Of a DNA stretch of 41,661 nucleotides, positions 33,293 through 41,661 are shown piece after piece; position 1 is the stretch's first letter; every line of letters begins with the position of its first letter. This DNA is from a virus. The translations under genes and the position numbers were made by a program. A model generated the notes under the pieces. That model saw only the letters and a program-made list of their open reading frames with translations, made no database searches and had not been told where the DNA came from. The stretch lies in the IMG/VR virus record IMGVR_UViG_3300024346_000163, positions 1 through 41,661 of that record; one strand, given 5' to 3'.

Positions 33293-36271
33293 ATGATATT
33301 ACACAGCCCAACGATTTCAGGTTCATTAACATTCGCAGATGGTGGAACATTTACATTACCAGATAATGGTGTATATAGTGGTTCATTTAGTGGTTCAATC
33401 CAAGTACATCAGGCAATTTCAAGCATTTTACCAAGTGTAACCAACACATTTGACTTGGGTTCGCCAGAAAAACAATGGAGAGATATTTATCTTTCTTCTG
33501 CTTCTCTTTACATTGATGGAACTCCTGTATTACAGTCAAATAATTCTGAACTTATCATTAGTACAGATGTCAACCAATCTCTTAAATTGGTTGAAACTGG
33601 TGCTGATACAATAACTTTACAAACAGAGAATGGTGATATTACATTTGCTACAACAGGAAATGGTAATATCGAATTAGATGCACCAATCCAAATTGCCGCA
33701 GGTAATAAAATTCTTTCATCTGATGGAAACAATATCCATTTTGGAAATGGATTAAGTGTAACTGGTAGTATTTCTTTAAGTGGTAATGTTGATGGTGTTG
33801 ATGTTGCTACATTAAAATCTTCATTCGATACTCTTAATTCTAAATCATTAGTTTCAGGTTCATCACAAGTTGATGTAACTGCTACAACTGGTTATTCTGC
33901 TATATCTTCTCACATATCTTCTACATCAAACCCACACTCGGTAACAAAAGCTCAAGTTGGTTTAGGTAGTGTAGATAATACTTCAGATTTAGATAAACCA
34001 GTATCAACTGCAACTCAAACTGCATTAAATGCAAAATTGAATATCAATGGAGCAGGTGTAGTTTCGGGTTCATCTCAAGTTGATGTAACTGCAACTGCAA
34101 ATTACTCAACCATATCTTCTCACATTAGTGATACATCTAATCCACACTCTGTAACAAAATCTCAAGTTGGATTAGGAAATGTAGATAATACTTCAGATTT
34201 AGATAAGCCAATTTCTACTGCAACTCAAGATGCATTAGATTTAAAAGCTACTGTATCTGCATTAAACACTCAAGCAGGTAGAATTGATGCAATCCTTGCT
34301 TCATCTACTGCAGACGCAGATACATTCGCTGAAATTGTATCCTTAATTAATTCAGTAGATACTACAAACGATTCTGCATTTGCTGGATTTGTAACTTCAT
34401 CTAATGCTGCACAAGCAGTACAAGATGATAGATTATCTGCTTTGGAATCTACAAGTGGTTCATTACTTTCTTCTTTAGATTCTCATATTTCCGACACAGA
34501 TAATCCACACTCTGTAACAAAAGCACAAGTTGGATTAGGAAATGTAGATAATACTTCAGATGCTAACAAACCAGTATCAACTGCACAACAAACTGCATTG
34601 AATTTAAAAGCAGATTCTACAACTTTATCTGCTCACGTTGGTGATACTAATAACCCACACTCGGTAACAAAAGCTCAAGTTGGATTAGGAAACGTAGATA
34701 ATACTTCAGATTTAGATAAACCAGTATCAACTGCCCAACAAACTGCATTAAATGCAAAATTGAATATCAATGGAGCAGGTGTAGTTTCGGGTTCATCTCA
34801 AGTTTCTTATCCAAGTTTATCTAATATTCCAAGTGGAATAGTTTCTGGCTCATCTCAAGTTTTAGGTGGAAGTGGAATTGTATCATCTTCTGCACAAATT
34901 GATTCATTAGGATTCTTAAAAGTAGGTGGAGATGGTGTAATTTCAGGTTCATCTCAAGTTTCATTTAGTTCAATCGTAGATAAACCAACTTTAATTAGTG
35001 GTTCATCACAAGTAGACCATGATTCAACTACAAACTTTGTTGCAAACAAACACATTGACCACTCAACTGTATCAGTTACTGCAGGTGCAGGTTTAACTGG
35101 TGGTGGTGATATTACAATCTCAAGAACTTTAAATGTTGTTTCTGCAAATGATGCTATTCTTGTAAATGCAAACGATATTCAGTTTGTTAATACATCTGTA
35201 ACATTAAGAGATGGTATTAAAACTAAATTAAATCTTGACGGAGTACTTTCAGGTTCAACTCAAGTACAAGCTGGTTCAATTAGTGGTGATATTGCACTTG
35301 GTGCTCAAACAAGTGGTAACTATGTAGCTTCGTTAGTTGCTGGAACTAATATTACACTTTCAAACAATAGTGGTGAAGGTGCAACTCCAACAATCGGTTT
35401 AACAAATAATTCAATCACTATTTCAGGCACATCAGTATCTTTAGGTGGTTCAATTACAGATGCGGTATTATTTGGTGGAACTAATTTAATTTCAGGTTCA
35501 ACTCAAATCCTTTCAGAAGTGTCTATTGATGAAGATGCAATGACATCGAATTCTGCTACTAAATTACCAACTCAACAATCGGTAAAAGCGTATGTAGATT
35601 CTAAAGTTGCAGGATTAGTAGATTCCGCTCCTGGTGCTCTTGATACTCTTAATGAACTTGCACTTGCACTTGGTGATGATGCAAACTTCTCAACAACCGT
35701 AACAACTTCAATCTCTACTAAAGCAAATAGTTCAGTACAAATTATTGCAGGTGCAGGTTTAACAGGTGGTGGTGATTTAACCGCAAGTAGAACTCTTAAT
35801 ATCGGTGCTGGTACGGGTGTAACTGTTGCTGCTGATAGTATATCTATTGGACAGCCAGTTGGAACTGGTGATACCGTACAATTTGCTAAACTTGGTGTAG
35901 GTGGAGCTGCAGATGCAACTTATGAATTGAAAGTAACTGGAGATATTGGTGCAACAGGTGATATCGTTGCTTATGTATCTTCGGATGAGAGATTGAAAAA
36001 TAATATAGAATTGATTTCTAACCCAATTGAAAAAGTACAATCACTTCGTGGTGTAACTTGGGAATGGAATGAATTTGCTTCAGATGCTGCAAAACAATCA
36101 CCAAATCTTGGTGTTATTGCACAAGAAGTAGAAAAAGTTCTTCCTCAATTGGTTCATGATAGAGAAAGTGGTTTTAAAGGTGTAGATTATTCTAAACTTA
36201 CCGGTCTTTTAATTGAAGCAATAAAAGAACAACAAAAACAAATTGACGAATTAAAGTCAAAATTAGGTTAA
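33293..36271 (+). CDS. tail fibre protein with H-S-V-T-K repeats and C-terminal S74 chaperone domain
   Basis: This 992-residue protein lacks the shared attachment N-terminus and opens with beta sequence (S-P-T-I-S-G-S-L-T-F), so it may be a distal fibre segment. N-T-F-D-L-G-S-P-E-K-Q-W lies near 50. Four copies of N-P-H-S-V-T-K-(A/S)-Q-V-G-L-G-(N/S)-V-D-N start near residues 212, 282, 403 and 453. This is a known phage tail-fibre repeat (Phage_fiber_2-like, from memory). The Gly-rich V-T-A-G-A-G-L-T-G-G-G-D block occurs near 600 and again, as I-A-G-A-G-L-T-G-G-G-D, near 820. Residues 896-992 are an S74 chaperone domain (S-S-D-E-R-L-K-N-N-I; L-G-V-I-A-Q-E-V-E), with the Ser-Asp pair at 897-898. 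Confidence 0.9.
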   Translation: MILHSPTISGSLTFADGGTFTLPDNGVYSGSFSGSIQVHQAISSILPSVTNTFDLGSPEKQWRDIYLSSASLYIDGTPVLQSNNSELIISTDVNQSLKLVETGADTITLQTENGDITFATTGNGNIELDAPIQIAAGNKILSSDGNNIHFGNGLSVTGSISLSGNVDGVDVATLKSSFDTLNSKSLVSGSSQVDVTATTGYSAISSHISSTSNPHSVTKAQVGLGSVDNTSDLDKPVSTATQTALNAKLNINGAGVVSGSSQVDVTATANYSTISSHISDTSNPHSVTKSQVGLGNVDNTSDLDKPISTATQDALDLKATVSALNTQAGRIDAILASSTADADTFAEIVSLINSVDTTNDSAFAGFVTSSNAAQAVQDDRLSALESTSGSLLSSLDSHISDTDNPHSVTKAQVGLGNVDNTSDANKPVSTAQQTALNLKADSTTLSAHVGDTNNPHSVTKAQVGLGNVDNTSDLDKPVSTAQQTALNAKLNINGAGVVSGSSQVSYPSLSNIPSGIVSGSSQVLGGSGIVSSSAQIDSLGFLKVGGDGVISGSSQVSFSSIVDKPTLISGSSQVDHDSTTNFVANKHIDHSTVSVTAGAGLTGGGDITISRTLNVVSANDAILVNANDIQFVNTSVTLRDGIKTKLNLDGVLSGSTQVQAGSISGDIALGAQTSGNYVASLVAGTNITLSNNSGEGATPTIGLTNNSITISGTSVSLGGSITDAVLFGGTNLISGSTQILSEVSIDEDAMTSNSATKLPTQQSVKAYVDSKVAGLVDSAPGALDTLNELALALGDDANFSTTVTTSISTKANSSVQIIAGAGLTGGGDLTASRTLNIGAGTGVTVAADSISIGQPVGTGDTVQFAKLGVGGAADATYELKVTGDIGATGDIVAYVSSDERLKNNIELISNPIEKVQSLRGVTWEWNEFASDAAKQSPNLGVIAQEVEKVLPQLVHDRESGFKGVDYSKLTGLLIEAIKEQQKQIDELKSKLG

Positions 36272-37363: not shown

Positions 37364-38362
37364 ATGGTTTACGATGTATATTATACAACAGGTGGAGGTC
37401 CTTGGGTTAATGCAGGAACGGATACTTGGGTAAACCTATGGATAGACTTAATTGCACCTAAATTACAGGTAAAACCCATCCTTATTCTTCATAGAAACAA
37501 ACCAAAAGGACATGAAGATTACCAATTTCCAATAGAAGCATATTGGCATGGTGATGATACCCAAAAAGTAGAAGAATTATGTAGAGGTGCACGTAGAATA
37601 AACATTCTACACGGTCATTATACCCCAATGGGAGTGATTGAGGAGAACAAACACAAGATTCACTCAAACATACTCCATAATTCAGTTGACCATATCTTAA
37701 AATCGCAAGTTGGGACTGATGCTTCATTAGGTTGGCATCCTTATTTAGATTCAAGTTGGGAAACACAAGTAAATGAATGGGCGACTCACTCAATTTGGGT
37801 AGGTTTATATGATATTTTAATTCCAAACCAAAATATTCGTAATTTTTACGAATTTAAACATCATCAACCTCTTTCAGAATCAAATAATATTGGTTTTGCT
37901 GCAAGATGTGAGGGTAGAAAGAATCCACATTATTTAGATGGATTAAAATCTTATATTTTTACAAATTCAGTAGAATTTAATCTAATTTGGAAAAATGGTG
38001 TAAAAATTGATACATCTAAATCAAAGATATACCATTATGATTCATCATTCAAAGATAAATTTTATAATATGAATTGGGGAATCTCCCATTCATCGTTTAC
38101 ATCAGAACCATTTGGATATGGTATTTTTGAAGCAGTAGATAGAGGTAAATTACCAATAATAAACAAAACTTGGTGTAAAGAATTAGAATACCCATATCGT
38201 GCTTCAACTAAAAAAGAATTCGGTTATATTTATAGTAAGTTGTTAGAAACCCCTTATGAAGAAAAAAATCGTTGGTTTAATGTTATTAAATCGTTTATGA
38301 TTGATAATTTCTCTGATAAAGATAAGTGGGTAGAACAACTGCTCAATATTTATAATATATAG
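37364..38362 (+). CDS. GT-B fold glycosyltransferase (GT4-like)
   Basis: This is a 332-residue protein. The N-terminal half is Rossmann-like with a Gly-rich start (T-T-G-G-G-P-W). The C-terminal half has G-F-A-A-R-C-E-G-R-K-N at about 177-187, comparable to the donor-binding G-R...K block. It also has S-E-P-F-G-Y-G-I-F-E-A-V-x-x-G at 247-261, the E-x7-E motif of retaining GT4-type enzymes (E248 and E256) followed by the usual G-x-x-P-I-I. The specific sugar and acceptor are unknown. The ATG follows the previous fibre stop with no gap, so fibre or virion glycosylation is one hypothesis, and modification of the host surface is another. Confidence 0.75.
   Translation: MVYDVYYTTGGGPWVNAGTDTWVNLWIDLIAPKLQVKPILILHRNKPKGHEDYQFPIEAYWHGDDTQKVEELCRGARRINILHGHYTPMGVIEENKHKIHSNILHNSVDHILKSQVGTDASLGWHPYLDSSWETQVNEWATHSIWVGLYDILIPNQNIRNFYEFKHHQPLSESNNIGFAARCEGRKNPHYLDGLKSYIFTNSVEFNLIWKNGVKIDTSKSKIYHYDSSFKDKFYNMNWGISHSSFTSEPFGYGIFEAVDRGKLPIINKTWCKELEYPYRASTKKEFGYIYSKLLETPYEEKNRWFNVIKSFMIDNFSDKDKWVEQLLNIYNI
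38345..38354 (+). promoter_or_regulatory. candidate late promoter element AATATTTATA
   Basis: Nine of ten positions match the recurring element. It overlaps the last codons of the glycosyltransferase gene, 21 bases before the next ATG. GAGGAA at 38362-38367 is the ribosome-binding site. A perfect copy at 38225-38234 lies deeper in the same coding region and is probably chance. Confidence 0.35.
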
Positions 38363-38375
38363 AGGAAATATAATT

Positions 38376-39659
38376 ATGGCAATTACATCAGGAGAAACCC
38401 TTTCACTAAACTCATTAGGTTCTGCAACAGGACAAACAACTAAATCATTATCAGCTGCAAAAGGAAACACAACCGGTCCTATTGCAATGTCATCTTTTGG
38501 TATAGATGAAGTTGGTTCAATTAGTGGATATACTTATGCAGTCGAGGGTACATCAGAAAATTATACATTAGGATTTGTTGGTGCAGGTTCAAACTTCTCA
38601 AGAATTAGTTCAAGAGGTGCCAACTTTACTTGGTCTATTCCAACACAAGGTGGGTATTTAAGTTTAAGTACCGATTCTGGTGCAACAAGAACATTTTCAA
38701 TAGGACAGATGAACCCACAAACTCCTGTTTCTCAATCTGCATTACAATCTATTGTTTCTCATACAATTAGAGTAGTTTTTGCAGATGGTTTTAATCACCA
38801 TGCTACAAATTATAATTCAAATAGAGATAAAGTAGTTTATTCAGTAGATTCATACGATGGTAACTCTACTGCACTTTGCTTAAAATCAGATACTTTAGTA
38901 ACACTTTCTGATGGTTCATCAATGCAAATTGGTGATTTGGAAGAAGGAATGAAATTAAAAGGATATTCATTGACAGGATTAAATTCTTCTATGAATATGA
39001 TGGAGTGGAATTCTTCTGAATTATCACCTGAAGAAGTTGAGGTTAATGTTGTAAATGTTGTATTCTCATTTGCTGAAAGAGCTTATAATATTAATAATGG
39101 TGAAATTATTGCAACTGCAGAACACCCATTAGTAGTTAAAGATTCCAATGATGTTTTTAAATTTAAAACAGTACATTCAGTTGTTGTTGGTGACTCTTTA
39201 ATAAAAGGAGATGGTTCTTCTGTTTTAGTTGAATCCATTGTAGTTGAAGAAGGTACTATTGAGATTGTATCTCTTGATGTAGATGGCCCTGATACTTATT
39301 TAGCAAATGGATACATTACTCACAATAAAGGTGGTGATACTCATAGTGATTTACCTGCACCTGGTGCTCCAACTTCATTAGCATATACATCAGTAAATGG
39401 TGAAAATAAAAATATAACTTGGGTTGCTCCTGCTTCAACCGGTACTACTGGTATTACTGCATATGATATTCAAGTAGATAATAATTCTGATTTTTCATCA
39501 CCAAACTTGAATTTTTCAGAATATAGTACGACTACTTTAAATATTGTAGCATTACCAACTGGAACTTACTATGCAAGAGTTAGAGCAATAGACCATGGAT
39601 TGAAATCAAACTGGACTTCAACTTTAACTATTAGTCATACTCAAGGTATTGGTCAATAA
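38376..39659 (+). CDS. virion protein with intein-like Hint domain and fibronectin-III domain
   Basis: This is a 427-residue protein. Residues 1-165 are a beta-rich structural domain. Residues 168-317 form a Hint module: block A C168-L-K-S-D-T-L-V-T-L-S-D-G, block B A-T-A-E-H250-P-L, and block F/G T-Y-L-A-N-G-Y-I-T-H316-N317. It is only 150 residues, so there is no homing endonuclease. The residue after the terminal Asn is Lys318 rather than Cys, Ser or Thr, so normal splicing is not expected, but N-terminal thioester chemistry or Asn cleavage could still occur. Residues 327-422 are a fibronectin-III-like domain (A-P-G-A-P-T-S-L, N-I-T-W-V-A-P, Y-Y-A-R-V-R-A). It is probably a self-processing tail adhesin. 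Confidence 0.85.
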   Translation: MAITSGETLSLNSLGSATGQTTKSLSAAKGNTTGPIAMSSFGIDEVGSISGYTYAVEGTSENYTLGFVGAGSNFSRISSRGANFTWSIPTQGGYLSLSTDSGATRTFSIGQMNPQTPVSQSALQSIVSHTIRVVFADGFNHHATNYNSNRDKVVYSVDSYDGNSTALCLKSDTLVTLSDGSSMQIGDLEEGMKLKGYSLTGLNSSMNMMEWNSSELSPEEVEVNVVNVVFSFAERAYNINNGEIIATAEHPLVVKDSNDVFKFKTVHSVVVGDSLIKGDGSSVLVESIVVEEGTIEIVSLDVDGPDTYLANGYITHNKGGDTHSDLPAPGAPTSLAYTSVNGENKNITWVAPASTGTTGITAYDIQVDNNSDFSSPNLNFSEYSTTTLNIVALPTGTYYARVRAIDHGLKSNWTSTLTISHTQGIGQ

Positions 39660-40090: not shown

Positions 40091-41661
40091 ATGGCAGAAA
40101 AGATTGTATCACCTGGTGTATTTACAAGAGAGAATGACCTTTCTTTCTTATCACAAGGTATTGGAGAAATCGGAGCAGCAATAATAGGACCATTCCATAA
40201 AGGACCTGCATTCGTACCAACCGTTGTTAGTACACAATCAGAATTTGAATCAATATTCGGTACACCGAATGGTGATTTCTACACGGGATATACCGTACAA
40301 AATTATTTAAGAGAAGCTGGAACAGTAACTATCGTTCGTGTTGGACACATCGGTGGTTATACTCATGTTGACCCAATTGCAATTAAAGTAAGTGGTTCTA
40401 ATGGTATTCATGTTGTTGGTACTCTTAATGTAACTCACAATGGTGATGAATCAGTTGGTTTACCAAGTTCAGTAATTACATCTGTTCCATCTTCTTCTGC
40501 ATTTTCTATTTCAGGTTCTGAATTAGGAACTGAATTATCTGCATCTATCTTACCATCTGCTGGTAATGATTTGTCGGATGTATTTGGTGAAAATGCAAGA
40601 GGTTCTAAAAATGCTTATGTTTACAATTACTACGAATCAGCTGCAACTAATTTAGTAAATGAAATTGCAAGTGGTTCTCAAGTAATTTTAGAAGTAATGC
40701 CTGACCAAGATTTTGCTCAAGATATTTCTCACGCTTCCACTCCTTGGATTCAATCACAATTAATTTCTGGTGAGAGACACAATCTTTTCCAATTACATAC
40801 TCTTGGTGATGGTTCAAACTATAACAAAGAATATAAAGTATCTATCTTTAATGTAAAGGCAGCAGGAGAAACCAATTCTACTGATTACGCTACATTCTCA
40901 TTAATGATTAGAGGCTATTCTGATACTGACAGAAGAAAATCTGTATTAGAAACTTACTCTAACTTAACACTTGACCCTGCATCTCCAAATTACATTAAGA
41001 AAGTAATTGGTGATATGAATGTTACTATTGATGCAAATGGTAAACAAACAATGAATGGTGATTATCAAAACCGTTCTAAATTTGTAAGAGTTGAAACTGC
41101 TGAAGAAGGTTCATTCCCAATCATCGCAGGACCATTTGGACATGAAGCTTATACTAACACAGTATTAGTTGCAACTGAAACTGAAGTTCCTGCAGTGGTA
41201 TTCTCAACTGATTCAGATTCTAACACTGCTTCAAGTGGTACATCATTTAGTGGTATTGATTTAGAAACTGCAGTAGTTAAGATTGATAATTCACACTACC
41301 TTAAACCAATTCCAACCGGTGCTGGTGTAGGTTCTAACGTTGCTTTTGCTTTTGATTCTACATTATCTTATGAACTAACCGGTTCTGATTCTGCAGATGT
41401 AAATAAAAGACAATTTACAGTAGGTTTCCAAGGTGGATTCGATGGTGTATCTCCAACAGTTAAAGCTGCAAAAGCAGGTGATTCTGATTGGGGTGCTGGA
41501 AACTCTCAAGGTTTCAACTTATCTACTTCAACTGCAAGTGGTTCAGTTGCCTATGTAAAAGCAATCAATGCAGTATCTAATCCTGATGATTTTGATATCA
41601 ACTTGGTATCTGCACCTGGTGTTGTTCGTAGATTACATTCTTATGTATTTGATAAAGTAGT
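40091..41661 (+). CDS. 18: tail sheath protein (gp18-like), 3' truncated by window end
   Basis: The ATG at 40091 is nine bases after AAGGAG, and the frame stays open to the window edge (523 complete codons). The N-terminus matches T4-type gp18: I-V-S-P-G-V-F-T-R-E, then A-A-I-I-G-P-F-H-K-G-P-A-F-V-P, F-E-S-I-F-G near 54-59 and V-T-I-V-R-V near 79-84. The middle carries inserted beta sequence. The sheath polymerises round the tail tube and contracts on infection. Its conserved C-terminal polymerisation domain lies outside the window, as does any tube gene (gp19). Confidence 0.95.
   Translation, partial: MAEKIVSPGVFTRENDLSFLSQGIGEIGAAIIGPFHKGPAFVPTVVSTQSEFESIFGTPNGDFYTGYTVQNYLREAGTVTIVRVGHIGGYTHVDPIAIKVSGSNGIHVVGTLNVTHNGDESVGLPSSVITSVPSSSAFSISGSELGTELSASILPSAGNDLSDVFGENARGSKNAYVYNYYESAATNLVNEIASGSQVILEVMPDQDFAQDISHASTPWIQSQLISGERHNLFQLHTLGDGSNYNKEYKVSIFNVKAAGETNSTDYATFSLMIRGYSDTDRRKSVLETYSNLTLDPASPNYIKKVIGDMNVTIDANGKQTMNGDYQNRSKFVRVETAEEGSFPIIAGPFGHEAYTNTVLVATETEVPAVVFSTDSDSNTASSGTSFSGIDLETAVVKIDNSHYLKPIPTGAGVGSNVAFAFDSTLSYELTGSDSADVNKRQFTVGFQGGFDGVSPTVKAAKAGDSDWGAGNSQGFNLSTSTASGSVAYVKAINAVSNPDDFDINLVSAPGVVRRLHSYVFDKV

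Follow-up and report, generated by a model that had tools for sequence, protein, structure and literature searches.

What does a Hint module do inside a phage tail protein when its His-Asn end is followed by lysine? We addressed this question for a 427-aa gene product encoded in the window, the whole 41,661-nucleotide stretch of IMG/VR record IMGVR_UViG_3300024346_000163 that was analyzed. Sequence conservation of the HN-Lys end, which is invariant, suggests that the module may weld together two parts of a host-binding protein, beyond cutting it. The features on which the argument turns are as follows:

37364–38362, + strand: gene for a 332-aa neighbor, without a Pfam match above cut-off
38376–39659, + strand: the whole gene, an open reading frame of 427 aa in the order Ig-like domain, Hint, Lys, FN3
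38376–38876, + strand: N-terminal part, residues 1–167, predicted as a partly helical start of ~40 residues and then an Ig-like beta sandwich (AlphaFold2, fold matches)
38877–39326, + strand: Hint module, C168–N317, resembling A-type bacterial-intein-like (BIL) domains (profiles, conservation, fold)
38877–38879, + strand: Cys168, predicted thioester-forming residue (91/91 aligned rows; TGT codon)
39114–39125, + strand: block B, T247-A-E-H250 (H250 invariant and T247 nearly invariant; codon counts)
39321–39326, + strand: His316-Asn317, predicted site of Asn cyclization (invariant)
39327–39329, + strand: Lys318, the invariant +1 residue and proposed acyl acceptor (80/80 and 195/195 ends)
39354–39626, + strand: FN3 domain, residues 327–417 (Pfam fn3, fold), with LamG or another module in relatives
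40091–41659, + strand: tail sheath gene (gp18-like), incomplete at the window end (PHROG tail sheath, E = 5e-8)

The translated reading frame contains C168, T247-x-x-H250 (within TAEHP), H316-N317 and K318, and the module occupies residues 168–317 exactly, as the first-pass annotation had described it. That annotation had also set a structural domain on the N-side of the Hint and a fibronectin-III domain on its C-side, an arrangement with which both profile and fold matches agree, but it named A167 as the crosslink site, whereas the residue before C168 is Leu167 and the alanine is residue 166. A docking role can be suggested for the ~40-residue N-terminal start.

Profile searches gave NCBIfam intein_Cterm above its cut-off (18.0 vs 15.6 bits, residues 300–317) and intein_Nterm slightly below it (22.7 vs 24.5 bits, E = 1.5e-4, residues 168–254). 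Pfam PT-HINT, Intein_splicing and fn3 were all sub-threshold (E = 3e-4 to 6e-4; fn3, E = 3e-4), PHROGs returned no match for the Hint gene, and the best PDB match by sequence profile was the C. thermocellum BIL (E = 8e-5), followed by the KlbA intein and BIL2. An AlphaFold2 model of the precursor, built on an alignment of 91 relatives, had a mean pLDDT of 87 and a pTM of 0.52, hence an uncertain placement of the domains, and pLDDT fell below 50 only around residues 161–164 and 319–323, which are the two Hint junctions. The predicted Hint matched solved BIL and intein domains with Z of 18–21 over ~130 residues, led by BIL2 of Tetrahymena BUBL1 (6y75; Z = 20.8, rmsd 1.7, 138 residues) and followed by the C. 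thermocellum BIL (2lwy; Z = 19.3), the Ssp DnaB intein (1mi8; Z = 19.1) and the Hedgehog autoprocessing domain (Z = 17.7). Because BIL2 leads another BIL and a true intein by only 1.5–1.7 Z, the fold is uninformative on mechanism. The FN3 part gave a fold match of Z ~12 in the predicted structure, and residues 1–166 modeled alone (pLDDT 87.5, pTM 0.83) formed an Ig-like sandwich whose best matches were T5 pb6 and lambda V, both of them tail tube proteins, at Z values (8.4 and 8.0) only in the common-fold range.

Relatives of the Hint gene occur on hundreds of IMG/VR contigs. Three scans yielded 382, 514 and 475 confirmed relatives, the best 80 of each being fetched; HNK was part of the search pattern in the first scan and absent from the pattern in the other two. 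A further scan with HNK in its pattern contributed 80 listed loci and, in addition, L171–L210. Across 91 sequences, reaching down to 26% identity after clustering below 88%, 18 columns were invariant, including C168, H250, P251, H316, N317 and K318, a conservation beyond chance; K318 is the sole invariant column after the Hint. Lys occupied +1 (HNKG) in 80/80 loci chosen by an N-side motif alone (the best 80 of 475), a set used so that the search pattern could not preselect Lys. It also followed HN in 195 of the 198 unique Hint ends fetched; the three others were a contig end (L254), a frameshift (L195) and an HNA end from outside the family (L212, NCTB), which makes 195/195 among the readable family ends. 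By C-terminal type, the unique ends carrying Lys comprise 64 LamG, 10 of a third type and 121 FN3-like/other, the last a remainder class assigned by motif; all were K. A regular expression recovered K in 151 of 157 unique N-domain ORFs, and the remaining six consist of three HNKG ends (L262, L043 and L069), two with HNKG in another frame (L195 and L136) and the contig end L254.

The codons of H250, H316, N317 and K318 varied synonymously only in 57 and 50 unique sequences from two scans (Lys318: AAA 99 times, AAG 8 times), where Cys168 was always TGT and the block-B Thr was replaced by Ser once; the count omits L254 and L274 of 80 owing to pattern mismatch, L274 having HNKG. Hint domains can in principle lose catalysis, and an inactive Hint retained as a structural spacer would be compatible with a module known here from its sequence and predicted fold. 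Such retention is very unlikely, however, as C168, H250, H316 and N317 are invariant and their codons change only synonymously, against a mean top-residue frequency of 69% for the Hint overall among 70 unique close relatives.

In complete family members, the N-domain and the Hint are followed by a C-terminal module of which at least three types occur: FN3, a lectin-like LamG module (Pfam Laminin_G_3, E = 9e-17 in relative L095) and a third type. The tail setting proposed in the first-pass annotation is borne out by 128 distinct loci, in 127 of which a tail sheath gene lies just downstream; fibre-like genes are present in 91, the 332-aa neighbor is present in 117 and directly upstream in 116, and a 93-aa gene is directly downstream in 87. 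Since the gene order is the same across these 128 loci, the Hint gene is a fixed member of the tail operon, not a mobile insertion. No description of a BIL family fixed in a phage tail operon was found in the literature searched, which covered few subscription journals.

If a tail gene had acquired a mini-intein that splices in the usual way, the intein N- and C-terminal profile matches would be accounted for. This origin is scarcely credible, given Lys at +1 everywhere in the family, the constant gene order, no endonuclease within the 150 residues, and no Hint-less homologue among the 157 unique N-domain ORFs (nearest matches only, three of them cut or frameshifted). Nor was Cys, Ser or Thr seen at +1 in any of the family ends examined. 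With the catalytic set and the +1 Lys kept family-wide, the description of the module as a splicing-deficient mini-intein, in the sense of a decayed one, is not supported, and a decayed or mobile intein is not favored.

The terminase of this virus is phage T4-like, its nearest relatives being those of Microcystis phage Mel-JY01 and Flavobacterium phage immuto (~56%). Mel-JY01, the nearest isolate by terminase and sheath, gave no Hint or N-domain match in the 15–64 kb examined, and none of 24 pattern stretches in bacterial genomes was a relative. A tblastn search of the window protein against 50,697 phage records matched only the FN3 stretch, in one record, and the LamG-type relatives found weak Hint relatives among phage records only in Erwinia phage pEa_SNUABM_32 (two records) and Phage NCTB. 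Within the window, the 332-aa neighbor is, by a motif, probably a GT-B glycosyltransferase and may modify tail proteins. A 992-aa fibre protein at 33293–36271 is built with repeat units of the type NPHSVTK..VGLGNVDNTSD and carries a Peptidase_S74 chaperone domain (Pfam, E = 5e-15).

Phage Hints outside the family, a comparison that rests on L211, L212, L385, L386 and L387, carry Ala, Thr, Ala and Thr after HN and, in one protein with three Hints, Ala, Arg and a Lys that ends the chain. One scan for further phage Hints returned its own source only; another returned 11 loci, and the two new ones examined both belong to the family. This triple-Hint protein (765 aa; L387:725-3019, on the 275,970-base IMG/VR contig G002) has tandem Hints ending HN-A, HN-R and HN-K-stop, and its first part resembles by eye that of a 509-aa protein (L386:777-2303, on the 288,673-base contig G001) whose Hint is C-terminal and has 29 Cys-rich residues beyond HN; the first part of the latter gives an ATP-grasp-like impression and has no Pfam match. 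The proteins at L385:786-3302, L211:2104-3543 and L212:1-3588 are large phage proteins, one of them collagen-like and from an Erwinia phage, in which the Hint lies at the very C-terminus with 7–10 residues past HN, as if for activating the N-side.

We propose that the gene product is the precursor of a tail-associated adhesin made up of an Ig-like virion domain, a self-processing Hint and a variable binding module, FN3 here. C168 would form a thioester with L167, and the acyl group could then pass to Lys318 by either of two routes: its side chain may accept the group, which would give an isopeptide, or N317 may cyclize and the freed alpha-amine of Lys318 accept it, which would give a normal peptide bond. 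In both cases the Hint would be released and the product would be a single Ig-FN3 adhesin of ~277 residues. We infer the activity, the ligation and the acceptor amine, and for the two routes together we regard amine-driven ligation via Lys318 as the tentative first choice, at somewhat short of an even chance. The larger part of this falls to the side chain and the remainder to the alpha-amine; by itself, ATP-free isopeptide splicing with the fixed +1 Lys as nucleophile, joining an Ig-like base to an exchangeable module (FN3, LamG or the third type), is doubtful. That Lys stays constant at +1 although the fold following it differs between relatives would be best explained by a role of Lys318 in the reaction.

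Type A BILs, which have a His-Asn end and no +1 nucleophile, are reported to give mainly cleavage products, and for their splicing an attack on the thioester by the freed alpha-amine has been proposed (PMC4031507). In BIL2, by its authors' report, splicing attaches to a lysine of the C-flank through an isopeptide bond, and the N-flank is also conjugated to other substrates (PMC8616854). Because some splicing does occur in type A BILs and BIL2 reportedly forms an isopeptide, the absent +1 nucleophile alone does not, on our analysis, imply that the module cleaves rather than splices, as the first-pass annotation had concluded. Its further suggestion of a covalent link to a virion or host amine fares better, in that an amine linkage is plausible; the likeliest acyl acceptor would be Lys318 itself, not a host amine.

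Cleavage alone, in which hydrolysis of the C168 thioester and cyclization of Asn317 would split the precursor into Ig-like part, Hint and an FN3 domain either released or held non-covalently, is possible if on balance unlikely. It fits a Lys that is not a canonical +1 nucleophile and reviews in which BILs mostly cleave (PMC4031507, PMC7664689), yet it needs no lysine, leaves the fixed one unexplained and would sever what is presumably the host-binding module, located behind the Hint in the complete family members examined. We consider ligation via Lys318 more likely than pure cleavage since BIL2 is reported to make its bond with a C-flank lysine. Also in favor of such ligation, the closest solved fold to the predicted Hint is this reportedly isopeptide-forming domain, both junctions are low-pLDDT stretches in the model, and outside the family most ends of phage Hints have a residue other than Lys at +1. 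Against it, Cys, Ser or Thr would achieve the joining by the ordinary route, cleavage products predominate in type A BILs as reported (PMC4031507), and the conservation of Lys-Gly could have another cause, for instance a function at the N-terminus that release of the module would expose.

Alternatively, the Leu167 thioester might conjugate the Ig-like domain in trans, the acceptor being an amine on the host surface or on a different virion protein; the reported conjugation by BIL2 offers a precedent. The distant phage Hints at the very C-terminus of large (e.g., collagen-like) proteins would also suit such a transfer, as C-side ligation there adds only 7–10 residues. This outcome is nonetheless improbable for the family studied here, as it leaves the FN3/LamG module and Lys318 without a role and the acceptor protein is only hypothetical.

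If Lys318 is the acceptor, a phage lysine amine would replace the Cys/Ser/Thr side chain of inteins, hundreds of natural variants would be at hand for comparison, and tail adhesins would have a new way of being finished and diversified. Side-chain splicing, if true, would mean that a lysine-dependent protein ligase exists in nature outside eukaryotes and is widespread there. Even with cleavage only, the genes would represent a large BIL-domain family with a constant place in a phage tail operon.

Judged by its sequence and predicted fold, the module is A-type BIL-like, with two departures, the invariant Lys at +1 and the conserved setting. It shares with type A BILs the His-Asn end (H316-N317 in 91/91) and the lack of Cys/Ser/Thr at +1, and the C. 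thermocellum BIL is its top PDB match by sequence profile. Type A BILs are reported from bacterial proteins that are not conserved, within their hypervariable regions (PMC7765530), whereas here the N-domain, flank and gene order are conserved and only the C-terminal module varies. Cys at position 1, block B T-x-x-H and His-Asn are those of a Class 1 intein such as the mini-intein Ssp DnaB, but Lys318 stands where such inteins have Cys/Ser/Thr, and no Hint-less alleles were seen among the 157 N-domain ORFs, which are the nearest matches. A type B BIL is excluded by the presence of block G (His-Asn) and by intein_Cterm above its cut-off, and a Class 3 intein, with no Cys/Ser at position 1, by the invariant Cys168. 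Phage NCTB ('large intein domain protein') and Erwinia phage pEa_SNUABM_32 have sequence-related Hints in large phage proteins, but at the C-terminal end, with Ala and Thr at +1 and without FN3/LamG behind. BIL2 of BUBL1 from Tetrahymena thermophila (6y75, 6tmm) has 22% identity to the Hint over 138 residues and, like the phage module, lies between two independently folded domains (for BIL2, as reported in PMC9200820); its flanks are ubiquitin-like, in a ciliate, whereas those predicted here are Ig-like and FN3/LamG, in phage tails. The account of BIL2 consulted places the reacting lysine in the C-flank and does not specify +1 (PMC8616854); the invariant Lys318 is no more than consistent with isopeptide splicing of the BUBL/BIL2 type.
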